From contig JACZJK010000052.1 in assembly GCA_014860575.1 (NCBI GenBank), positions 62,001 to 126,000 on the forward strand: 64,000 nucleotides of DNA, written 5' to 3'. Source of the stretch: Bacteroidales bacterium (GTDB lineage Bacteria; Bacteroidota; Bacteroidia; Bacteroidales; JAAYJT01). Shown here in pieces: positions 32,959 through 44,512 of the stretch. Both the position numbers and the translations under genes were made by a program. The notes under the pieces are model-generated. The model was not told the DNA's origin, did not search any database, and worked only from the letters and a program-made list of their open reading frames with translations. The stretch's first letter is position 1. Every line of letters starts with the position of its first letter.

Positions 32959-35900
32959 ATGAGTTTAAAAGGAAATAAGTTCGGTGCCTTCAAAGGGGTT
33001 TTTACCCCTTCTATTCTCACTATTCTGGGTGTGATTATGTACCTAAGGCTACCCTGGATTGTTGGGGAAGCCGGCCTACTGGCAACCATCGGTATAATCC
33101 TGGTGGCACATCTCATCTCAGTAACTACGGGTTTAAGTGTTGCCAGCATTGCCACTAACAAACGGGTTGAAACCGGTGGCACCTATTTTATGATTTCCCG
33201 TAGCCTTGGCCTTCCCATCGGTGGAACACTTGGCCTGGCTCTCTTTGTTGGCCTTTCGTTCAGCGTAAGTCTTTATCTTATTGGTTTTTCAGAGACCTTC
33301 CTCACCGCATTAGGTCTTGAACCGAGCCTTTATAATATAAGGATTACTGGCACGCTGACGCTGCTGGCTGTAACCATCCTGACTTTCTTAAGTACTAGTC
33401 TGGCGCTGAAAACGCAGTTTATTATCCTCGCCGTAATGGCCCTTTCGCTGGTCTCTATCTTTTTCGGCAGGCATGAGTTTGCGCCTTCCGAACCCTTAAT
33501 AGAATCTGCAACACGCACCTTGCCCTGGATCGCACTTTTTGCAGTTTTTTTCCCGGCTGTAACCGGTTTTGAAGCCGGTGTTTCAATGTCGGGTGATTTA
33601 CGCGATCCCAAATCGTCAATACCAAAAGGAACGATATCTGCTATTTTTGTGGGCTTGATTGTCTATCTCGGACTAGCTTTTTTCTTTTCCTACACTGTTA
33701 ATGGTGAATTGCTAAAAGACTCAACCGTACTTTACCAGATCTCTCTGTTTTCTCCCCTCGTTATTGCCGGAGTTTGGGGTGCAACACTTTCCTCAGCACT
33801 GGGAAGCATTTTAGGCGCCCCACGAATTCTCCAGGCAACGGCTATTGACAGGATCACACCCAAATTTTTCGCAAAAGGTTTTGGAGCCGGCAACGAACCA
33901 AGAAACGCGCTTTACCTGACTTTTCTCATCGCTTTTGGCGGGATCATGATCGGCGATTTGAACGTAATTGCCCGGATTGTTACTATATTCTTTATTATCA
34001 CCTATGGTTTCCTGAACCTGACCTGCGCCATCGAAAATATTGCCGGATCCGATTTCAGGCCAAGTTTTAAAGTTCCGGCATGGGTGGGTTTTCTTGGAGC
34101 TTTTGCTTCATTTATAGTTATGATTCAGCTTGATGTAATAGCAATGCTGGGTGCAACTGTAATTCTTGGGGCATTATTTCTCATTTTGAAGCGGCGCGAA
34201 CTTACCCTCCAATCAGGCGATACTTGGGGCGGCATTTGGTCCTCCCTAGTTAAAATGGGGCTTTACAAGCTTTCTGATCAAAAAGCTATTGAGAAGCACA
34301 ACTGGAGGCCAAACATCATTTTATTCAGTGGCAGTGCCAGTTCAAGGCCTTATTTAATAAGCCTTGCAAGGTCTGTAGTGGGCAGGCTGGGTGTTTTCAC
34401 AAATTTCGAACTCGTTGAAGAAAAGTCGGATCAGAAACATGTAACAAAATCGGGAGCAACCATAGCTACAATTGACAGCGAGGGGAAAAAGGTTTTTACC
34501 CGTCAACTTATTTGCAAAGATATCTATGAAGGAATGAACACCATAAGCAGCGTTTATGGTTTTACAGGTTTTGAACCGAATACAATATTGTTGGGCTGGG
34601 GTAAAACTACAAATGAACCTGAAAAATTTATTGACCTCATTGAGCACTTTTCGAGGACCGATTACAGCCTTGCATTGCTTGGCTTTGATAAAGAGAAAGG
34701 ATTTGGAAATAAAAAGCGAATAGATCTGTGGTGGAATGAAGGCAGCAATAACCTTTATTTTGGCATAACCCTGTTAAAGTTCTTAACATCCGATTCTCAA
34801 TGGCGGCGCGCAAAATTGAGGGTGCTCCTTATCAGCCATGACAGCAGCATCAGTGAGAAAGCTCACTATATTATTAGGCAGATTCTTGATGACAATCGCA
34901 TTGACGGAAATATCAAAATCATTGAAAACAACATCGAAAAGAAACCTTATGATGAAATCATTCATTTCCATAGCGTGGAAGCTGACTTGACAATCCTTGA
35001 TTTCGGTTTGGGCGGCGATGAACCTGACATGAAATCTTTCAATAACCTGAATAAAATTATTAAAGCTTCAGGCACATCGCTGATTATTAAGGCAGGAAAT
35101 GAGTTTGATAGCCTCAGCATTCCGGTAATAAAAGGTATGATTTCCGCAAACGGGCCTATCCAGACTAAAGAACTAACAGTTCCATTGCCTGAACTCCTGC
35201 CTTATCCCAATAAAGAAATTTTGGCCAATGAGTTATATGTTGTGGCTGAAAGCTTTGAAGAAATGCACAGGCAATATGTTCTTCGCCCGCTGGCAGAAGT
35301 TGATGCCGCATTTAAAAATGCATTAAAATCGCTTGCAGACCTCAATGAATGGGCTATGTCCTCGATGGAGAAAGTCCTGAAACAAGAAGATCCTTTGACC
35401 CGTTCAAAAAGCTTTTCAAAGTTATATGGCGATTATCTTTTTAAAGCCGACCGGCTAATTATCTCATTGGAGAAAGAATTGCTACCCGCAATTCGTAATC
35501 ATTTTACTACGGCCACTGCTGATTATCTAAGCCATGCTACCAAGCGACTTGAAAAAGTTCCCGAAAAGATTTCTGTAAGCTACAACCGGGCTGAATTTAA
35601 GATTAACAAATCTGATTTATTCCTGACCCGGTTAAGAAAATTCCGTTTACTGGCGATATCGAGACTTTCCAACCAAAAAGTGACCCACAAAACCCAGCTC
35701 AGACGAATTGAGTCTTTGTTTCTGGTTTCTAAAAGAAAAGAAACCAATTATGAGATTATTCGGGAGCTTGGTATTGCATCATTTTTATTTCTTAGTTCCC
35801 TGAGGCAGAACCTCACAGAAACCAATCAGATTATTCAAAACATAAATAATCACACCAATGATATTGTTTCGGCTTCTCTTGCTATGCAGGAAGCCAAAGA

Positions 35901-38100
35901 TAAACAAACAGAACTTCTCAGACAGATTGGCGATCAAACAGGAAATGCTATAAGTTCATTATCACAGCATATAAGTTCAGAGCTTCAGCTAAGCCTTGAA
36001 AACATCAGCATTATGCTAGGTGATCCATTGTCAGTCAAAGGAATCAGGGCTCAGGAAAAGGATCTTGATAAATGGATTGCAACAAATAGTTTTTCTGCTG
36101 AATCGCATGAAGTGCTTGAAAAAAATCTGCTTTTCTATGTAAATAAAATTCATACTGAGTTTATTCTTCATTCCCTTAAAGCAAGGCTTAAGGCAAAGCT
36201 CTCGAAATACTTCGTGGATCTTGAAATTATGCTCGAAAACAAATTAGGAAAACCATTGCAGGGGATAAAAGATATCATCAGCGATTTTCAACATGAGTTT
36301 AATGAAAATCAGGCGAAGGAATTCTTCGATGTGCTAAAAGATCAGGAACCGATTAACCTTCATCTCTTTTTTGAGCTCTTCTTCAGGGACTTGCAATTAA
36401 TGATTGCAGAACTGCCTTCTGAAATTATCATCACGCATCCGGATTTTATTTCAAGGATCGAAAAAAGAAACTTTGATGAGCACGAAGGTGAACTTGTTGA
36501 ATTACGAAAGCAAACGAACCTTTACATTGGCCGTGATATGATCAATAAGCTCAGGATTGAGCTTGGCAACACAGAATCCAGCCTAGCTGAAATCCACGGA
36601 AACATCAGCGATATATTCCGGCTTGCAATTTTTAATATCGAAAATGTTGAAAAAAACAGCCACGGTGAGATCAGCAGTATTGAAAATAAGCGCATCAATG
36701 ACCTCAATGCTGAGTTGCTTGAGCGTATAGATCAGCAACAAACCAAAGTAAATCAAACCTATTGGCAAACTATAGCAAATATTAACGCCCTGGCTGATTC
36801 ATCATTTGAACCATTGGCTAATCAATTGTTAACCCATGAAGGAAAGGTCATAAAATCGCCGGTGCAAAAAAGCCGAAGCGAAGCAAAGATTTCTGAGCTT
36901 ATGCTTAAGTTCAGGCGAAGTTTTCAAAAGCATTGGGTAAATATTCTCTATACCCAGAGCGAGGGATTGCTCTTTTTCAAAAAGATATCCAAAACCGAAC
37001 CGGATCATAAATTTGTAAACCAGGTAGTTCATGAAATAATTGATACGCTGGTTCCGAACCCGGAAGTAGCGAGGGAAATCCCATACTATTATGCGAACCT
37101 TTTTGCAGGCAATTCAACAGTTAACAAAGAACTATGGGTAGGCATGAACAAACAACGCAACGAAGCAAAATCAGCCGTTGGAAGGTTTCGTAAAGGGTAT
37201 GGAGGTGCGATCCTTATCACAGGTGAAAGGAACTCCGGAAAATCGAGCCTATCCAGGTTCATAGCTCGTGAAGTTTCGGTTGATAACAGGGTTTATGTGA
37301 TCAGGGCGCCCAAAGCTGGTTCAGCAAAGCTTGAAGACTTGCATACTGCAATTCTGTCTGCCATAAACATCAACATGGAGCTCGATTATCTTCTTGATAT
37401 CCAGCAAAGAGACATGATTTTTGTGTTCAACGACCTGGAATTATGGTGGCAAAGAACAACAGACGGACTTGAAGCAATTGAAGAATTGTTCAGGATAATC
37501 GAGAAATTCGGTAAAAAGCATTTATTCATTGTCAACTGCCGTAATTGGACCTATTATTTCCTGAACCGTTTTTATGGCCTCGAAAAGTATTTTCTTGCCC
37601 ACATTGAATGCGAACCATTTGATGCACGTGAGTTAAAAGAAATGATTATGATTAGACATAAGGCTGGTGGCTTGATCTTTAAGATTAACAAAAAAGAAGA
37701 AAGCAATTACAGTCAGTATGATTATGCACAACTTTTTAATCGTTATTTTACACTTAGTGACGGAAATCCAGGATATGCTATCAGGGCATGGATCAACAAT
37801 ATTACCGGCATTAACGGTAAAACTATTGAATTGCGAAAGCCTGTTGTTCCTGATTCGAGCAGCCTGGCAAACCTGAGCCATGAAATGATGCTGGTAGTCC
37901 TTCAGTTTGTTTTGCATCGTAGGTTCACACCTGCAAAGCTTGCAGATGTATTGCACAAAACTGAGCAATATGCATCTATGATGATAGGCGATATGCATCG
38001 TGTTGGCCTTCTGGAAGAAAAATTTCCTGGGGTATTTGCGCTCAACATCGTATTAGAGCCATTTCTGGTGGAAGAGCTAAAACAAAAGAAGTTGCTCTGA
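32959..38100 (+). CDS. Giant fusion: SLC12-like cation-chloride cotransporter plus C-terminal P-loop ATPase
   Basis: A 1713-residue protein. Residues 1-430 form an APC-superfamily transporter of the cation-chloride type: TPSILTILGVIMYLRLPWIV (about 17-36) closely mirrors TM1 of eukaryotic NKCC/KCC. The next 300 residues resemble the SLC12 C-terminal domain (HNWRPNIILFSG near 450, RIDLWW near 592, KLRVLLISHD near 617). Residues about 770-1380 are long helices with coiled-coil character. The last 330 residues are an AAA/STAND-like ATPase with Walker A GERNSGKSS (1422-1430), Walker B IFVFND (about 1487-1492), an RHKAGG segment and a winged-helix-like end. It is the first gene of a probable operon with the MscS-like and CPBP genes. 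The function of the ATPase part is unknown. Confidence 0.85.
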   Translation: MSLKGNKFGAFKGVFTPSILTILGVIMYLRLPWIVGEAGLLATIGIILVAHLISVTTGLSVASIATNKRVETGGTYFMISRSLGLPIGGTLGLALFVGLSFSVSLYLIGFSETFLTALGLEPSLYNIRITGTLTLLAVTILTFLSTSLALKTQFIILAVMALSLVSIFFGRHEFAPSEPLIESATRTLPWIALFAVFFPAVTGFEAGVSMSGDLRDPKSSIPKGTISAIFVGLIVYLGLAFFFSYTVNGELLKDSTVLYQISLFSPLVIAGVWGATLSSALGSILGAPRILQATAIDRITPKFFAKGFGAGNEPRNALYLTFLIAFGGIMIGDLNVIARIVTIFFIITYGFLNLTCAIENIAGSDFRPSFKVPAWVGFLGAFASFIVMIQLDVIAMLGATVILGALFLILKRRELTLQSGDTWGGIWSSLVKMGLYKLSDQKAIEKHNWRPNIILFSGSASSRPYLISLARSVVGRLGVFTNFELVEEKSDQKHVTKSGATIATIDSEGKKVFTRQLICKDIYEGMNTISSVYGFTGFEPNTILLGWGKTTNEPEKFIDLIEHFSRTDYSLALLGFDKEKGFGNKKRIDLWWNEGSNNLYFGITLLKFLTSDSQWRRAKLRVLLISHDSSISEKAHYIIRQILDDNRIDGNIKIIENNIEKKPYDEIIHFHSVEADLTILDFGLGGDEPDMKSFNNLNKIIKASGTSLIIKAGNEFDSLSIPVIKGMISANGPIQTKELTVPLPELLPYPNKEILANELYVVAESFEEMHRQYVLRPLAEVDAAFKNALKSLADLNEWAMSSMEKVLKQEDPLTRSKSFSKLYGDYLFKADRLIISLEKELLPAIRNHFTTATADYLSHATKRLEKVPEKISVSYNRAEFKINKSDLFLTRLRKFRLLAISRLSNQKVTHKTQLRRIESLFLVSKRKETNYEIIRELGIASFLFLSSLRQNLTETNQIIQNINNHTNDIVSASLAMQEAKDKQTELLRQIGDQTGNAISSLSQHISSELQLSLENISIMLGDPLSVKGIRAQEKDLDKWIATNSFSAESHEVLEKNLLFYVNKIHTEFILHSLKARLKAKLSKYFVDLEIMLENKLGKPLQGIKDIISDFQHEFNENQAKEFFDVLKDQEPINLHLFFELFFRDLQLMIAELPSEIIITHPDFISRIEKRNFDEHEGELVELRKQTNLYIGRDMINKLRIELGNTESSLAEIHGNISDIFRLAIFNIENVEKNSHGEISSIENKRINDLNAELLERIDQQQTKVNQTYWQTIANINALADSSFEPLANQLLTHEGKVIKSPVQKSRSEAKISELMLKFRRSFQKHWVNILYTQSEGLLFFKKISKTEPDHKFVNQVVHEIIDTLVPNPEVAREIPYYYANLFAGNSTVNKELWVGMNKQRNEAKSAVGRFRKGYGGAILITGERNSGKSSLSRFIAREVSVDNRVYVIRAPKAGSAKLEDLHTAILSAININMELDYLLDIQQRDMIFVFNDLELWWQRTTDGLEAIEELFRIIEKFGKKHLFIVNCRNWTYYFLNRFYGLEKYFLAHIECEPFDARELKEMIMIRHKAGGLIFKINKKEESNYSQYDYAQLFNRYFTLSDGNPGYAIRAWINNITGINGKTIELRKPVVPDSSSLANLSHEMMLVVLQFVLHRRFTPAKLADVLHKTEQYASMMIGDMHRVGLLEEKFPGVFALNIVLEPFLVEELKQKKLL

Positions 38101-38142
38101 TACACAATGATACATTAATTTGATACAGACAAAATTATTGTT

Positions 38143-38847
38143 ATGAAAAGCATTTTATACCTGGTTGCCGGCGTGGGGCTGTTTATTCTTTTTAACTTAA
38201 GCTTCATGTTATTGCAAAAACTGGCTTATAACAAAAAATCAGTCAGGCTTTTTCTGAGGGTTTTTCCAGTCATTGAGCTTGTTGCCTGGTTAGTTTTTGC
38301 CGTTTTTACGCTTAAAGGTCTGTTGAGTGAAATGGAAGGTTATCAGGAAATCATTATCGTTGTGGTTTCGATAATACTGATAACAATTGGCTGGTACTTT
38401 CTACGCGACTACATTGCCGGCACAATACTTAAAGTTGAAAATGCTTTTGCGGTGAACCAGCAGATTATTACTCCTGAAATTCATGGAACAATCAAGAAGG
38501 TGGGATACCGCAGTCTTGAAGTGGAAAGTGAGTCCGGGCAGTTTTCGAAATTACCCTACAGCCGCTTGTCAGGCCAGATTTTTAGCTTGCAGGCTCCCGC
38601 TGAATCAATTCTCAGTCACGAGCTCACTATGGAAATTCCTTCAACACAGAAGATTGAGAGCATCAAGGAGCAAATTGTAAAGGAACTGTTATTATTACCT
38701 TGGGTTTCGGTAAATCATACACCTGAAATAAAAACAATAAGTGAAACGAACGAAGTAATTACCCTGCGGATAATTTATAGCACATCAAATGAAAATCAAA
38801 CCTCTGTCATCAATCAATACATAAGAAAACGATTCGAAGAAAAATGA
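38143..38847 (+). CDS. Small MscS-like mechanosensitive channel family protein
   Basis: A 234-residue protein with three hydrophobic helices (about residues 3-25, 43-62 and 70-90), then the MscS-type beta domain beginning LRDYIAGTILKVENAFAVNQQI (about 87-108) and GTIKKVGYRSLEVESESG (about 114-131), and a C-terminal alpha/beta domain. The pore helix is shorter and less Gly/Ala-rich than in E. coli MscS, so it may gate differently or act as a regulator. It is 42 bp after the cotransporter-ATPase gene and overlaps the next gene by 4 bp, which links ion transport, tension sensing and the CPBP protein in one transcript. Confidence 0.8.
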   Translation: MKSILYLVAGVGLFILFNLSFMLLQKLAYNKKSVRLFLRVFPVIELVAWLVFAVFTLKGLLSEMEGYQEIIIVVVSIILITIGWYFLRDYIAGTILKVENAFAVNQQIITPEIHGTIKKVGYRSLEVESESGQFSKLPYSRLSGQIFSLQAPAESILSHELTMEIPSTQKIESIKEQIVKELLLLPWVSVNHTPEIKTISETNEVITLRIIYSTSNENQTSVINQYIRKRFEEK

Positions 38848-39467
38848 GAAGGTTCTTACTTGTATCTGAACTTATTGTACTTTTTATCGGCGTGCCATTG
38901 CTGTTTTATTTTGATTGGATCCCCGGGCCAAAGTCCATTCCGTTGCTGCTTGCATTTGTTTATTGTTTGGCCGTTCTTCTCTTGGATAAGAATTTCGATC
39001 GCAAAAAACTCGGCGCTAATCGTTTTCGTGGTTTCAGATGTATCATGGTACGATTTTTCTTCACTGCCGCTTTGCTTACCGTTTACCTGTTGATCTTCGA
39101 ACCCCAAAACCTCTTTGTTATTCCGAAGGAAAAACCCTGGCTTTGGGTGGCCATCATGGTTTTCTATCCTTTGTGGTCGGCCTTGCCGCAGGAACTTATT
39201 TTCCGTGTTTTCTATTTTCACCGATATCAGCAAATCATTCCGAACAAAAAACTGCTCTTGTTTCTGAATGCTTTTCTCTTTGCCTTCATGCATATTATTT
39301 TCAATAACTGGATTGCTTTATTCGGAGGTTTCATTGTTGGTATTTTTTGGGCACAAACCTATTTACGAAACCAATCTCTGCTCACTGTAAGCATTGAGCA
39401 CGCCATTTATGGCAACTTTATTTATACCATTGGCCTAGGGCATTATTTTTATGTGCCTGATTTTTGA
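38844..39467 (+). CDS. CPBP family (CAAX-like) intramembrane protein
   Basis: A 207-residue membrane protein with six or seven hydrophobic segments, of the CPBP/Abi family. The usual first motif EExxxR reads QELIFR (about residues 117-122), keeping the second Glu and the Arg. The second motif is FLFAFMHIIFNNW (about 143-155) with its His, and the third has IEHAIYGN (about 185-192). Two of the three metal/catalytic elements are thus intact and the first Glu is Gln, so protease activity is uncertain. Such proteins often act in envelope maintenance or self-immunity to bacteriocins. Translation is coupled to the MscS-like gene by an ATGA overlap. Confidence 0.82.
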   Translation: MRRFLLVSELIVLFIGVPLLFYFDWIPGPKSIPLLLAFVYCLAVLLLDKNFDRKKLGANRFRGFRCIMVRFFFTAALLTVYLLIFEPQNLFVIPKEKPWLWVAIMVFYPLWSALPQELIFRVFYFHRYQQIIPNKKLLLFLNAFLFAFMHIIFNNWIALFGGFIVGIFWAQTYLRNQSLLTVSIEHAIYGNFIYTIGLGHYFYVPDF

Positions 39468-39725: not shown

Positions 39726-40448
39726 ATGAACCGGGAAAAAATCAGATTTATGAAAAGCTTATACCAAAACAAACTGGCAGCATGGCTGCCTGTAAACAGA
39801 ATGCTTGTATTTGTACTTGCAGGGTTGTTGGCATTTGGCGGCACTTCCTGTTCGAGCCAGAAACGGCTTGCAAAAAAACATGCTAAGGAAGCACGATTGG
39901 CACAAATCGAACAGGCCAAAGCCGAACTGTTTGAAATTATCAACGACGATGGCTTTTTAGCGCTCGAAGTGAAAGAACGAAAACTACAGGCTGTTAAAGA
40001 CATGAACCTTGATGATAAAGAAATAAACGATCTGATTATCAGGGCTGAAGAGAAACTTGCCCGCGACAGGGTTGAATACCTGAAGAAACAGGAAGAAGAA
40101 GCAAAACGTGCTGAAGAGGAACGTCTGGAGAGAATTCGTCTAGAACAGGAAAAAGCCACAAAATTTAGCCCGCTTCAGAATGCACTTGTTGGAGTTGCTG
40201 CGGCTTCCAACCTCCGTGATGCCAATAGCAGAATAAGTGATGCATTAAAATTGTTTGCCTCACCCGATGTTCCTGTACTGATTCTGATCAGTGAAGAAGG
40301 AGTTGTAAAAGATTACGACCGGCCAACTACAATCCAGAAATACCTGGAACTGTTAAAAGATCAGAAGCGATACAACAACGACATTGAAAGCGTCAAATAC
40401 GATGCTGCCGGAAAAGTCACAGAACTTGAATTAAGAACAAGATATTAA
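39726..40448 (+). CDS. Lipoprotein with coiled-coil, first gene of the exported LRR operon
   Basis: A 240-residue lipoprotein: the hydrophobic core VFVLAGLLAFGGTSC ends in a lipobox (Cys at about residue 42), after an unusually long N-region, so the true start may be the internal ATG of MKSLYQ (residue 9). A charged coiled coil rich in K/E/R/A (about residues 47-150, with KKQEEEAKRAEEERLERIRLEQE in the middle) is followed by a globular end of about 90 residues (DALKLFASPDVPVLILIS..., KYLELLKDQKRYNNDIESVKYDAAGKVTELEL). That tail resembles parts of the next two proteins. No family recognised. Probably at the outer or inner membrane facing the periplasm. Confidence 0.8.
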   Translation: MNREKIRFMKSLYQNKLAAWLPVNRMLVFVLAGLLAFGGTSCSSQKRLAKKHAKEARLAQIEQAKAELFEIINDDGFLALEVKERKLQAVKDMNLDDKEINDLIIRAEEKLARDRVEYLKKQEEEAKRAEEERLERIRLEQEKATKFSPLQNALVGVAAASNLRDANSRISDALKLFASPDVPVLILISEEGVVKDYDRPTTIQKYLELLKDQKRYNNDIESVKYDAAGKVTELELRTRY

Positions 40449-40462
40449 AAACCCGAATAAAG

Positions 40463-41038
40463 ATGAAAACAAGAATATTGCTGATTATCTTCATGTTGGC
40501 CTCACTACCGGTGGTACTGAAAGCCCAGGCTAATGATCTGAGCCCTGCACGCAAACAGGCGATTGATTCACTGGCGCTCGAAAAAGTCAGGGATCTGAGT
40601 AAGTATATTTCAATTGTTGGTAATAAAAACACTCCCTGGGCTGAGGCTAACCGGGTAATTGAACGCACCCTTGAATTGTTCGCCGATGGAAGCCAGATGG
40701 GTGTTTCATCATTGTACCGTCCCGAGATTGCATTCTATAGCGTTCGCGAATACCTTGAAAGGCTCATGGCCTTGAATTACGATAATGTTAAAATTGAATG
40801 GTATGATATTCATTATATCAGCGATCTTGAACGCCAACCCGATGGACGTTATGTTGGTGTGATAACCATTTACCAGATATTTGAAGGTACCGTTGGCGAT
40901 AAAATGGTGTACCGCGATACAACCAAGAAAGACATCACAATTTATGTTGAACGCAAACAAACACAAATTGGTGGGCGGCTCATTGATTTCTGGGATGTAC
41001 TTTTAGGCGATATCAGGGTCACTGAAACAACTCCATGA
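40463..41038 (+). CDS. Exported protein of unknown function, second gene of the LRR operon
   Basis: A 191-residue protein with a signal peptide (about residues 1-22, ending LKAQA). The mature part has ERTLELFADGSQMGVSSLYRP, then REYLERLMALNYDNVKIEWYDIHYI, then a beta stretch with GRYVGVITIYQIFEG and DITIYVERK. The helix-then-curved-sheet pattern suggests an NTF2-like (cystatin/SnoaL-like) fold, by eye only. It begins 14 bp after the lipoprotein gene and its stop overlaps the next ATG (ATGA), so it is firmly part of the operon. Confidence 0.78.
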   Translation: MKTRILLIIFMLASLPVVLKAQANDLSPARKQAIDSLALEKVRDLSKYISIVGNKNTPWAEANRVIERTLELFADGSQMGVSSLYRPEIAFYSVREYLERLMALNYDNVKIEWYDIHYISDLERQPDGRYVGVITIYQIFEGTVGDKMVYRDTTKKDITIYVERKQTQIGGRLIDFWDVLLGDIRVTETTP

Positions 41039-41862
41039 TAAGGTTCGTTTTTTTTGCTTTCTTCTTGCTGCAATGCTTTGTGCTCTCAATGGCACAAAGC
41101 ATTGATAGTTATTTGGGCGATGAAGCCACGCTTTATGCCCAGACCAAACAAGTAAACCAGTTTTTCAGACGCTTTAATGGCGAGGAAGGCTCAAACGGTC
41201 AACGCTATCAACTGAATGATCCCGATTATCGTGATGCTGCAGTGCGGAAAAAGTATCTCCAAATGATCTTTGACCTTGAGAGTCCTTATATTGATAAGAC
41301 CCAGCGCCGCGATTTTATTGAGCAGGTTACAGCCAAATCTGATCCGCTGCTGTTAAACTTTCATACAGGCGATTGGTTTGCTGAAGTCACAACCAGGTTT
41401 ATGTACTATGGCAGAGAAGAAAAAGTAACGCTGTTTCTAAAACTGGAAGAAGAAAACCACGGCTATAAATGGGTCATCACAAATTTATTCTTCAAACCTT
41501 TCCATGAATTATTTATTAATGAAGACGATGGCAAATTGCACTTTCTTCATCCGCTCAGTCATGAGCTTGATTTTATGAACCTGATCAAAGTGTTTAAGGA
41601 AACCCAAAAAGTGGCTAATTATGCAGCAAGTGGTTTTAAACCTGATTATCTCAGTGTGTTTCTTTATGAATTGAAAAGAAACAATTTAACTTTTCAAACT
41701 GTTTTAAACGTGAAATTCCATTTTTTCCAGGTTCCGGGATGGTATTTTGAGCTGTCGGATACACAGCGCAGCGGCCCGAACTCTGGATGGTTAATAAGTA
41801 GCTTGGTTGATATCAGTGAAATAAATAAAGACGATTTGTTGAAATACATATACTATGAATAG
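41035..41862 (+). CDS. Exported protein of unknown function, third gene of the LRR operon
   Basis: A 275-residue protein with a signal peptide (about residues 1-20, ending SMAQ). The mature chain includes a helical start (TKQVNQFFRRFNG), a segment GDWFAEVTTRFMYYGREEKVTLFLKLEEE (about 114-142) that looks like antiparallel strands, and a C-terminal beta part with FHFFQVPGWYFELSD. No family recognised. Both ends overlap neighbours: 4 bp with the previous gene and 8 bp with the LRR gene. Such tight packing implies that the products are made together and probably act together. Confidence 0.78.
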   Translation: MIRFVFFAFFLLQCFVLSMAQSIDSYLGDEATLYAQTKQVNQFFRRFNGEEGSNGQRYQLNDPDYRDAAVRKKYLQMIFDLESPYIDKTQRRDFIEQVTAKSDPLLLNFHTGDWFAEVTTRFMYYGREEKVTLFLKLEEENHGYKWVITNLFFKPFHELFINEDDGKLHFLHPLSHELDFMNLIKVFKETQKVANYAASGFKPDYLSVFLYELKRNNLTFQTVLNVKFHFFQVPGWYFELSDTQRSGPNSGWLISSLVDISEINKDDLLKYIYYE

Positions 41863-44512
41863 GGCATATTCTACCCTGTTATTTTCCTGCATCGTCCTGA
41901 TGCTTTCTGCATATCCTGTTGAAATTTTCGGACAAGAAAAGACCTCAAAACCAACTTTGTCACAGGAAGATATGCTTGAATTCACCCGCCAGTCAGAGCA
42001 ATTGGTGAGGTTTATGGAATATGCATTTAACTCAATTGGCGACCCCAACGTGAGCGCCAGGGAAAAAGATATTATAATCAATCAAAGTTACCTGAAGTTT
42101 TTTACCTCCAGCAAGGTTCAAATTGAAGACGATCTTGTTGAAGGTCGCTTTACAGTCACCAACAAGGAGGTGCAGGCCTACCTGAAAGATCTGGATTTTT
42201 TCTTTCAGAATGTTGAATTCACCTTTACGATTGAAGACATTTCCTATAATGTAAATGATAAAGGCCAGGTTTTCTTCATCGTTACCTCAACCCGAAACCT
42301 GAGTGGGAAAACAGTCGAAGGCGACTCCATTTATAACAACCAGGCCCGCTTCATCGAAATCAATCTTGATCGCGATAAACGCGATTTAAAAATAGCCAGC
42401 ATATACACAACCAAGCTAAGCGAAAAAGAAGACATGCGTAACTGGTGGGCAAGCCTGGATTCCGATTGGCGGTTGTATTTTGCAAAAGGAACTATGATTA
42501 ACGAAAACCTGCCACTGAAAGACATTGTCAGCTTTGAAGATGGCAAAATCCTGATCGAACGCTTCCATTCAACTGTAATTGAAGGTTATGTTATGGAAAC
42601 ACGTCGTGCTGATACGATGTTTTTGAATACCGGTGAAATCTATCGCGAAATAGGTCGGATATGGAAGATGGAAAGCATTGATATATCTGATTTTTCTTTT
42701 ATTTCTGATCTCTCACCTCTTGCTAAATTATCCGAACTCAAAACCATCAATATCAGTGGTTCTCATGTTGATGATCTCACACCAATACGTAACCTTACCC
42801 GTCTTGAGAACCTGATAATTTCAAAAACCTTTGTTCAGCGTCTCGATCCATTGCGTCACGCGATCAACATGAAGTCATTGGATATCAGCAATACTACCAT
42901 TAACGATCTGTCACCTGTAAGCGCGTTCCCATCTCTTGAACGCATCAATTTTGCCAATACGCTGGTTGAGGATCTCACAGCACTTACCGATTTGAGCTTA
43001 TTGCGCGATATCCGGCTTACCAACACACCTGTGATGGATCTTAATCCCTTAGGTGGATTAATTAGCTGCATTGTACTTGATATTTCGAACACAAACATCA
43101 GCAGTATTGATGCACTCGGCGATTTACAATCCCTTGAAAGATTGCATGCCGATAATACTAAAATTACAGATCTTGAGGCGCTTACAAGCTTGTCTAACCT
43201 TCAGTACCTTTTAATTGAGGGAACCGGGATAAGCACTATTCAGGTACTTTCCGGTTTGCCATCACTTCAGCGTATTTATTGTGATCGAACTCCAATTACA
43301 AGAGAGGAAGCCAATAAATTTATGCAGGAAAATCCAAAGGTCCTGGTTATACATGAGTCAGAAGCACTTTCAACATGGTGGAATGGAGTTCCTCAATCCT
43401 GGAGAAATGTTTTCGGAAAATATGTTCCCTTATCCGAACCACCCACCCGCGAAGAACTGCACGAAGTTGCAAATCTTACTCTTATTGATATTAGCGGCAA
43501 CAAGGAAATACTCAGCCTTTCACCACTTCAGAAGTTACTCGGGCTTAGGTCGTTGCTAGCGCGCGAAACGAATATCTTCACTATTGAAACCCTAAAGGAG
43601 AATATTGATTTAGTTGAACTTGATGTTTCTTCCACGCATATTCAAGACATTAAAGTGTTGGCGAACCTTCGGATTCTGGAAACAGTAAAGTTTGCTTATA
43701 CCCCTGTGGATGATTTATCACCATTACAATCAAATTATCAACTAAAGCATCTTGATCTGGAATTTACCAATGTAGTTTCACTTTTACCAATCACTACCCA
43801 CACTAATCTGGAAATGGTAATTTGTGATGGAATTCAGGTAAACGCGGAAGAATTGTCATTGATTTACGATGCGAACCCGCTTGTAACCGTGATCCACCAA
43901 ACCGAATTTTTAACTGAGTGGTGGCAGAATTTACCTGAAGCCTGGGTAAATATTTTAAAGTCGCAGCTTACTATTGATAATCCACCAACAAAGTATGATC
44001 TGCATCGCATGATTGACCAGCATGAACTTGACATCAGCAATACCCGCGAACTTCAGGGTCTTAAGCACATTGAGTTATTCCACCGTTTACGGGTTCTTAA
44101 AATGACGGATTTACAGGTAACAGACCTTGCCTCACTCGGGTCACTCAGGAATCTTGAGGAATTGTATTGTTCAAATAATCCTATAAGCAGTCTTCAACCC
44201 TTAGGCCAAATGAATAAGCTCACGGTTTTGGATTGTTCAAATACAATGGTACGAAACCTGAATGATTTAAGAAACCTGCCAAATCTTAGAGTTCTAAATA
44301 TTTCAGGAACTCAGGTTAGGAGCCTGAGGCCACTAAGCAATTTGCACTCATTACGTCAACTTGATTGCTACAATACAAAGATAATCAGCCTGATCCCACT
44401 CGAGAGCCTCAAAGGATTGGAACTTCTCAGATGCTATAATACCAATGTATGGCAATACTTTATTAACCGTTTTAAGAGAGCTGTTCCAGACTGCGAAGTT
44501 GTGTATTATTAG
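41855..44512 (+). CDS. Exported leucine-rich-repeat protein with three WW-x-x-LP-type modules
   Basis: An 885-residue exported protein (signal about residues 1-28, ending IFGQ). After an N-terminal domain (about 35-195) come three blocks, each introduced by a repeated motif: WWASLDSDWRLYF at residue 197, WWNGVPQSWRNVF at 508 and WWQNLPEAWVNIL at 689. Each is followed by SDS22-like leucine-rich repeats of about 22 residues with an LxxLxxLxIxxTxIxDLxPL pattern (about 270-495, 545-680 and 715-870). LRR arrays bind protein partners, so this may be a surface or periplasmic recognition protein. It is the last gene of the four-gene operon. Internalin-like folding is likely, but no virulence role is implied. 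Confidence 0.85.
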   Translation: MNRAYSTLLFSCIVLMLSAYPVEIFGQEKTSKPTLSQEDMLEFTRQSEQLVRFMEYAFNSIGDPNVSAREKDIIINQSYLKFFTSSKVQIEDDLVEGRFTVTNKEVQAYLKDLDFFFQNVEFTFTIEDISYNVNDKGQVFFIVTSTRNLSGKTVEGDSIYNNQARFIEINLDRDKRDLKIASIYTTKLSEKEDMRNWWASLDSDWRLYFAKGTMINENLPLKDIVSFEDGKILIERFHSTVIEGYVMETRRADTMFLNTGEIYREIGRIWKMESIDISDFSFISDLSPLAKLSELKTINISGSHVDDLTPIRNLTRLENLIISKTFVQRLDPLRHAINMKSLDISNTTINDLSPVSAFPSLERINFANTLVEDLTALTDLSLLRDIRLTNTPVMDLNPLGGLISCIVLDISNTNISSIDALGDLQSLERLHADNTKITDLEALTSLSNLQYLLIEGTGISTIQVLSGLPSLQRIYCDRTPITREEANKFMQENPKVLVIHESEALSTWWNGVPQSWRNVFGKYVPLSEPPTREELHEVANLTLIDISGNKEILSLSPLQKLLGLRSLLARETNIFTIETLKENIDLVELDVSSTHIQDIKVLANLRILETVKFAYTPVDDLSPLQSNYQLKHLDLEFTNVVSLLPITTHTNLEMVICDGIQVNAEELSLIYDANPLVTVIHQTEFLTEWWQNLPEAWVNILKSQLTIDNPPTKYDLHRMIDQHELDISNTRELQGLKHIELFHRLRVLKMTDLQVTDLASLGSLRNLEELYCSNNPISSLQPLGQMNKLTVLDCSNTMVRNLNDLRNLPNLRVLNISGTQVRSLRPLSNLHSLRQLDCYNTKIISLIPLESLKGLELLRCYNTNVWQYFINRFKRAVPDCEVVYY

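Follow-up and report, generated by a model that had tools for sequence, protein, structure and literature searches.

Architecture of the locus

We analysed a stretch of 64,000 nucleotides from a Bacteroidales bacterium (contig JACZJK010000052.1, positions 62,001 to 126,000; hereafter the window), in which a single uninterrupted frame of 1713 codons (32959..38100, + strand, ATG start) joins a cation-chloride cotransporter (CCC, family SLC12) to a long helical domain and an AAA+ ATPase, an arrangement that recurs in 64 distinct homologues of 1600–1800 amino acids (aa). A gene for a 234-aa MscS-family protein with a divergent pore helix (38143..38847, +) begins 42 bp past the end of the fusion and is overlapped by 4 bp by a CPBP/Rce1-like gene (38844..39467; Pfam 7.9e-11). 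A first-pass annotation of this DNA had described the unbroken frame, an SLC12-like N-terminus, a long helical linker, intact Walker motifs and the spacing of the two downstream genes, all of which are borne out by the results below.

The transmembrane (TM) domain of the cotransporter (residues ~7–415, 32977..34203, +) and its cytoplasmic C-terminal domain (residues ~447–690, 34297..35028, +) both align with solved NKCC1 and KCC structures, which are the top PDB matches for residues 1–700 (phmmer, 5.9e-78). The Pfam models AA_permease (PF00324, residues 14–411, 7.8e-44, 150.6 bits) and SLC12 (PF03522, residues 584–671, 29.0 bits against a cut-off of 27) both match, and the NCBIfam K-Cl cotransporter model TIGR00930 reaches 2.6e-110 but, at 370 bits, falls under its 953-bit cut-off. 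Using the phmmer alignment to NKCC1, we transferred the ligand positions given in the ligand list of PMC7889885 (Y383, T499, S613, S614 and Y686, with the gate R307–E389) to the window protein, where the corresponding set is R30, Y106, E112, P199, T202, S278, S279 and Y349. Among the 64 distinct fusions the two Na+-site serines are kept in 62 (S278) and 61 (S279), the K+-site residues in 61 (Y106) and 58 (T202, with Q instead in L099, L100, L113 and L121), the Cl-2-site residue Y349 in 63, and the outer gate in 63 (R30, one gap) and 64 (E112). KCCs are not known to have the Na+-site serines. Since both are retained here the set is NKCC-like and a KCC-type identity can be rejected. With these ligands kept, the CCC part appears to be transport-competent. 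We know of no CCC with such a stalk or AAA+ ATPase attached; stand-alone CCC frames in 395 Bacteroidota genomes measure 575–818 aa, the exceptions being three fusions including the window's own, and the PF03522 search behind this count overlooked a fourth (L080).

The remainder of the protein was modelled with AlphaFold2 (residues 690–1713, 48-row alignment; mean predicted local distance difference test score (pLDDT) 80.8, predicted template-modelling score (pTM) 0.54) as some 550 residues of long helices followed by an AAA+ domain that ends in a winged-helix-like unit. The helical domain (residues ~744–1300, 35188..36858, +) consists of two related repeats, its halves matching each other in hhalign at 2e-7 against 0.03 for a reversed control. 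The ATPase core and lid (residues ~1372–1634, 37072..37860, +) carry Walker A as GERNSGKS (residues 1422–1429, 37222..37245) and Walker B (residues 1487–1492, 37417..37434) ending in D1492, which is followed by Leu in place of the Glu frequent here among AAA+ ATPases; the winged-helix-like unit (residues 1635–1713, 37861..38097, +) is assigned from the secondary structure of the model. Across the 69 aligned fusions, of which 64 are distinct, no variation occurs at G1422, G1427 or K1428, and 68 keep D1492.

The best Foldseek match to this model is Cdc6p (1fnn, 2.9e-7), with Cdc6/Orc1 proteins leading and the NACHT domain of NLRP3, a P. abyssi Walker ATPase (2qen) and TnsC among the other matches. 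VIA-align, whose rows cover mainly the ATPase, places A. pernix ORC2 first (1w5t, Z 15.7, 322 residues, root-mean-square deviation (rmsd) 5.3), a match covering model residues 684–1024. As NSF D2 and clamp loaders lie within 2 Z of the top, we read the match as an AAA+ fold with ORC-like order rather than as a pointer to one function; the model thus predicts an AAA+ core, lid and winged helix. This order is common to the ORC1/Cdc6 and STAND/NACHT ATPases, which share about 10–14% sequence identity with the window ATPase and differ from it in that it is fused to a membrane transporter and has no Glu after the Walker B Asp. By sequence the domain is much harder to place: AAA_16 and AAA_22 match residues 1393–1471 only under the Pfam cut-off, with no Pfam AAA model over it for the window protein and no matching ATPase model in NCBIfam, two relatives (L067, L071) barely reach the generic PF13401, and a PDB sequence search with residues 1348–1713 gave no convincing match (best E 0.23). 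The possibility raised in the first-pass annotation that this part is a common unrelated domain was thus checked, and no such match over cut-off was found.

The downstream protein belongs to the MscS family by Pfam (PF00924, 1.6e-5, 25.3 bits against a cut-off of 20.2) and by its AlphaFold2 model (pLDDT 90, pTM 0.56), which has three TM helices, a beta domain and an alpha-beta domain. Foldseek ranks YbiO first (1.1e-12, probability 1.00, TM-score 0.34), with YnaI, MscK and MscS also matched, and of 50 rows shown 46 are titled MscS-type channels and four merely 'membrane protein'. The protein thus resembles the MscS superfamily (MscS, YnaI, YbiO, MscK) in topology, local fold and Pfam membership, and differs from it, as do the other partners of CCC and antiporter fusions, in having no Gly/Ala-rich pore helix (TM3a). 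Because the canonical pore helix is missing, it is unlikely to work as an ordinary tension channel; the tension component suggested in the first-pass annotation stands as regards family membership but not as regards a canonical pore. The organism has seven PF00924 genes in total.

Conservation of the fusion and the wider ATPase family

Residues 771–1713 match 15 of 60 relatives' genomes (own included) at E ≤ 1e-3. Ten of these hold open frames of 1654–1750 aa, three hold fragments (G002, G050, G011), one has a CCC-free relative (L027) and one a chance-level match (3e-4). Within the genus, two other genomes are available, and the fusion was found in one, at a contig end, and not in the other. 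A genome contig collection was scanned with the ATPase alignment and yielded 97 relatives. We analysed the best 80 of these, mostly from Bacteroidales metagenome-assembled genomes; 63 of the 80 loci have CCC and ATPase in one open reading frame (ORF). The contig begins within six of these 63 ORFs, and in two (L131, L161) the CCC is divided between two frames. The two sources together, restricted to proteins of 1600–1800 aa, gave 69 rows (L153 being cut at its start), or 64 distinct at below 99% identity. These are mostly from Bacteroidota; four records among the loci are titled as other phyla (Ignavibacteriae L114 and L140, Delongbacteria L125, SAR324 L157), for which misbinning is possible. 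The 80 loci include isolate records under the titles Perlabentimonas gracilis (L101) and Plebeiobacterium sediminum (L164). The fusion is therefore not absent from close relatives (10/60 genomes, own included, have the full open frame), and with 64 distinct examples an assembly artefact can be rejected. Plasmids searched by tblastn with residues 771–1713 gave no match, and no relative of the ATPase was found in viral contigs.

In 59 of the 62 loci whose contig continues (L160, where the contig ends, stands outside this count), the CCC fusion has an MscS-like gene no more than 200 bp away. We also observed a second, larger and divergently transcribed MscS gene (547–621 aa) just upstream of the fusion in seven loci (L017, L120, L126, L135, L143, L145, L154) and an additional MscS in tandem upstream in three (L111, L122, L133). 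The CPBP gene, which the first-pass annotation had taken for a proteolysis component made together with the other two proteins, is unlinked elsewhere: phmmer found none in the other loci searched (L005, L017–L028, L059–L178; L187–L223 lay outside the search), and we reject it as part of the module. Of the proposed three-gene association, the pairing of fusion and MscS-like gene is thus conserved and the CPBP gene is not. In the window it is followed by a run of four further genes (39726–44512, +) encoding a lipoprotein-like protein of 240 aa, two proteins of 191 and 275 aa that look secreted and have no Pfam match over cut-off, and a leucine-rich-repeat protein of 885 aa. Three Flavobacteriales loci (L166, L171, L178) encode proteins of roughly 1120 aa that combine a helical domain of the CCC type with the ATPase, and beside which neither a CCC (within three ORFs) nor an MscS gene was found; the upstream gene in L171 and L178 is an IPP transferase.

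The ATPase family extends well beyond the CCC fusion. Of 395 genomes of the phylum, 97 were matched at 1e-3 by a profile built on the C-terminal domain, and we examined all 77 matches other than our own with E ≤ 4.1e-18 (about 75 genomes). In 69 of these loci, spanning about 17 family codes, an MscS gene on the same strand overlaps the ATPase gene or lies within 60 bp of it (59 downstream, 10 upstream), compared with a background of 13/817 MscS-like genes among non-adjacent ORFs of at least 150 aa in the same loci (5/368 + 8/449). Most members other than the CCC fusions are proteins of about 1000 aa comprising helical domain and ATPase, and eight (298–433 aa) are ATPase alone. In 37 of the 77 loci the neighbours include an amidase and a uridine kinase gene, consistent with stable inheritance of the ATPase gene.

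Six loci (L059–L062, L081, L082) encode proteins of about 1500 aa in which an antiporter domain is fused to the N-terminus of the stalk-ATPase; it was identified in L059 by PF00999 (7.2e-19) and NCBIfam CPA2 (4e-9, under cut-off) and in the other five by phmmer to L059. All six have a TrkH homologue downstream (PF02386 for L059 and L062) and a 414–422-aa membrane gene without a Pfam match over cut-off upstream, so that the order is membrane gene, antiporter-stalk-ATPase, MscS-like gene, TrkH homologue; this looks like a complete K+/Na+ control operon. One copy of the membrane gene weakly matches the antiporter domain (7.5e-6). In four further loci with shorter proteins the antiporter is encoded by a gene of its own within the run, identified by PF00999 in L075 and L088 and by phmmer in L076 and L089. 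In two of them a 185–187-aa protein lies between ATPase and antiporter gene (L088:4172–4735, L089:4172–4729); it might be a shrunken MscS, its last part bearing a weak resemblance to the alpha-beta domain of MscS (E 0.0017, probability 16%).

By hhalign, the CCC-type helical domain shares homology with its counterparts in the transporter-free (9e-17), antiporter-fused (2e-14) and MscS-upstream (4e-8) proteins (reversed-sequence controls 0.04–0.6); the helical part of the four antiporter-neighbour proteins gave no match to it (E 0.12). We built a tree of 92 ATPase domains after random thinning of the CCC-fused rows from 71 to 26 and of the 'standalone' rows, among them contig-cut members of the CCC clade, from 71 to 45. 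The antiporter fusions cluster together (100/99), nested in a group of 48 rows (100/100) without any CCC fusion, and all 26 CCC fusions fall in a 40-row group that also contains CCC-free and contig-cut rows and has support of 94/82, below the level that the program stars; L024, L025 and the antiporter-neighbour rows were flagged as long branches. As antiporter and CCC fusions lie on either side of a branch supported at 100/100, the module has been joined to two unrelated transporters, each on its own branch.

Pore and nucleotide motifs across the family

The state of the MscS partner differs sharply between types. Scored in the stretch before the conserved Gly of the partner, a canonical-like pore motif is present in 58 of 59 partners of transporter-free proteins and in none of the 74 partners found with a transporter (0/66 CCC-linked, window included; 0/6 antiporter-fused; 0/2 antiporter-neighbour). 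Mean Gly plus Ala per 22 residues is 6.7 in the transporter-free type compared with 2.9, 2.3 and 3.0 in the CCC-linked, antiporter-fused and antiporter-neighbour types respectively. The trend in ATPase motifs is the opposite: the Walker A Lys is present in 71/71 CCC-fused, 6/6 antiporter-fused and 2/4 antiporter-neighbour domains and missing from 26/65 transporter-free ones (e.g. L027; 13 have Arg and three a gap), and the Walker B Asp is present in 70/71 CCC-fused and 4/4 antiporter-neighbour domains. In examples of the antiporter-fused and transporter-free types a Glu stands one place before the Walker B column. Judged by these motifs, part of the transporter-free family may be pseudo-ATPases.

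A candidate module for ion and volume homeostasis

Because one module is found beside MscS, CCC, antiporter and TrkH, the simplest account is control of monovalent ions and hence of turgor or volume. We therefore favour, with moderate confidence, a module for ion and volume homeostasis in which the stalk-AAA+ protein acts as a nucleotide-dependent regulator of an MscS channel or of the transporter fused to it. A cytoplasmic ATPase on a long two-repeat helical stalk would serve as a nucleotide-dependent switch of membrane ion flux with an MscS-family protein as its partner, which it would presumably contact. In most of the family the target of the switch would be the canonical-pore MscS channel encoded next door, and two branches have the stalk-ATPase attached to a secondary transporter, an NKCC-like CCC in the window and a cation/proton antiporter of the CPA type elsewhere. 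Retention of MscS where its channel function has apparently been given up suggests that the ATPase still uses it as a sensor or anchor in the membrane; in the transporter-fused branches the pore-less protein would most likely be a membrane-embedded scaffold or a tension-reporting subunit signalling to the ATPase, and the activity of the fused transporter would thereby be set jointly by ATP/ADP state and by the state of the membrane, perhaps including tension or ionic strength. More tentatively, the stalk-ATPases may be a general nucleotide gate for membrane ion flux in Bacteroidota, which in its usual form would act on an MscS channel and in which, on two or more branches, the pore was swapped for a transporter and MscS turned into a non-conducting sensor of tension or volume; we hold this broader proposal to be possible, though rather less likely than not to be correct as a whole. 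The volume- or osmotic-control unit proposed in the first-pass annotation survives in this form, the fusion being conserved and MscS-linked and an osmotic or ionic role its best reading, without the CPBP protease; its suggestion that the ATPase senses or gates the cotransporter is plausible as regards a regulator, although the pairing of ATPase and MscS is far wider than the CCC fusion and extends to fused antiporters. The module may also take part in osmotic adaptation. Of the best 80 loci, 26 carry isolate names of the CSSed, T3Sed or B1Sed series, and PMC6146748 gives CSSed10, CSSed11, T3Sed10 and B1Sed10 as hypersaline soda-lake sediments, to which series we take the CSSed16 names to belong; this is in keeping with salt physiology, although sites of this kind may be sampled more heavily than others.

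Several observations weigh against this regulatory reading. Eight of the 77 family loci have no adjoining MscS gene (L065, L085, L088, L089, L221, the start-cut L091, L098 and L223), nor do three of the 62 CCC fusions (L112, L165, L169), and the 37 loci in one neighbourhood are not independent of each other. CCC fusions are a minority of the family (3/77), and ligand residues of the CCC are lost in L024, L025 and L158. The structural match of the window's MscS-like protein has TM-scores of only 0.29–0.41 and rmsd of 11–15, so it is local and not a superposition of the whole chain, and the regular expression for the pore motif was devised after part of the sequences had been seen. The Walker A Lys is found in only 39/65 transporter-free domains, and the Walker B Asp in 3/65 of these and in 0/6 antiporter-fused ones (Asn in all), which suggests that use of ATP is not uniform in the family. 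Finally, the residue after the Walker B Asp is Leu, Ile or Met in all 69 aligned fusions and never Glu; this also makes the AAA+ part look more like a nucleotide switch than a motor.

In the alternative that fares best, the stalk-AAA+ protein is an assembly or targeting factor that, like a chaperone, remodels or inserts MscS or transporter complexes without setting their activity. Tight gene linkage would suit an assembly partner, and the closeness of NSF D2 and clamp loaders, which are remodelling AAA+ proteins, to the top of the VIA-align ranking (within 2 Z) is in keeping with it; however, that it is covalently joined to two different transporters points to a permanent subunit, and the degenerate nucleotide motifs of many relatives are ill-suited to a motor, so that we think this unlikely. 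Somewhat less likely still is an anti-phage or self-killing system, in which a STAND-like ATPase would sense an invader and trigger an ion leak through MscS or the transporter. An ORC/STAND-like AAA+ protein next to a membrane-pore gene, strong divergence (22–39% identity to the window protein inside one order), patchy presence (15/60 relatives) and weak PADLOC matches of two relatives' ATPases to mad8 (1.9e-4, 3.2e-4) and AbiLi (8.6e-4) are what such a system might show. Yet no PADLOC model scored better than 1e-4 on the six proteins scanned and none matched the ten neighbours in the window at 1e-3, while the common chromosomal neighbours of the 37 loci, the strong conservation of ion-ligand residues and the TrkH and antiporter neighbours all argue for a different role.

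KdpFABC, a channel-like subunit that acquired an ATPase, is a precedent for a primary active transporter in which AAA+ hydrolysis would energise the CCC or the antiporter, and Walker A is intact in all 71 CCC-fused rows. We nevertheless regard an ATP-driven pump as very improbable, given the Leu, Ile or Met after the Walker B Asp, the position of the ATPase beyond some 550 residues of helices, and the relatives that retain the stalk-ATPase layout with degenerate motifs. That the fusion is a meaningless read-through join in a neighbourhood inherited by descent, as might be argued from L102, where CCC and ATPase are two ORFs 51 nt apart, and from the much adjacency inherited within clades (37/77 in one neighbourhood), is scarcely credible against 64 distinct fusions in one frame, ten of them only 22–39% identical to the window's, and a second, unrelated transporter joined to the same module.

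The first-pass annotation knew of no described system of this kind, and we likewise found no CCC-ATPase fusion, MscS-ATPase pair or Bacteroidetes CCC of this kind in the open-access papers searched. No model in Pfam or NCBIfam names this ATPase family, and PADLOC matches are weak; as far as tested the module is not a known kind of system, its parts being members of known superfamilies. A parallel is K+ uptake by Trk/Ktr, in which a cytoplasmic nucleotide-binding protein (TrkA or KtrA) likewise sets an ion transporter and whose TrkH component neighbours the antiporter-fused type here. TrkA is an RCK/Rossmann nucleotide-binding regulator rather than an AAA+ protein, and Trk/Ktr is not known to have an MscS partner.

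PMC8280820 describes binding of ATP/ADP by KCC C-terminal domains, proposes this as an ancient trait of osmoregulatory transporters and leaves ATP hydrolysis by SLC12 C-terminal domains to future work. A natural CCC that has its own AAA+ ATPase and is represented by isolate records opens the action of ATP on CCCs to direct testing. If the regulatory reading is correct, the stalk-ATPases would be a new class of regulators of ion homeostasis, present throughout much of a phylum, and their MscS partners a case of a channel fold that has seemingly become a transporter subunit. Under the more tentative proposal of a general nucleotide gate, the arrangement would be a bacterial counterpart, directly coupled to ATP and tension, of the kinase-based volume control of NKCC and KCC in animals.

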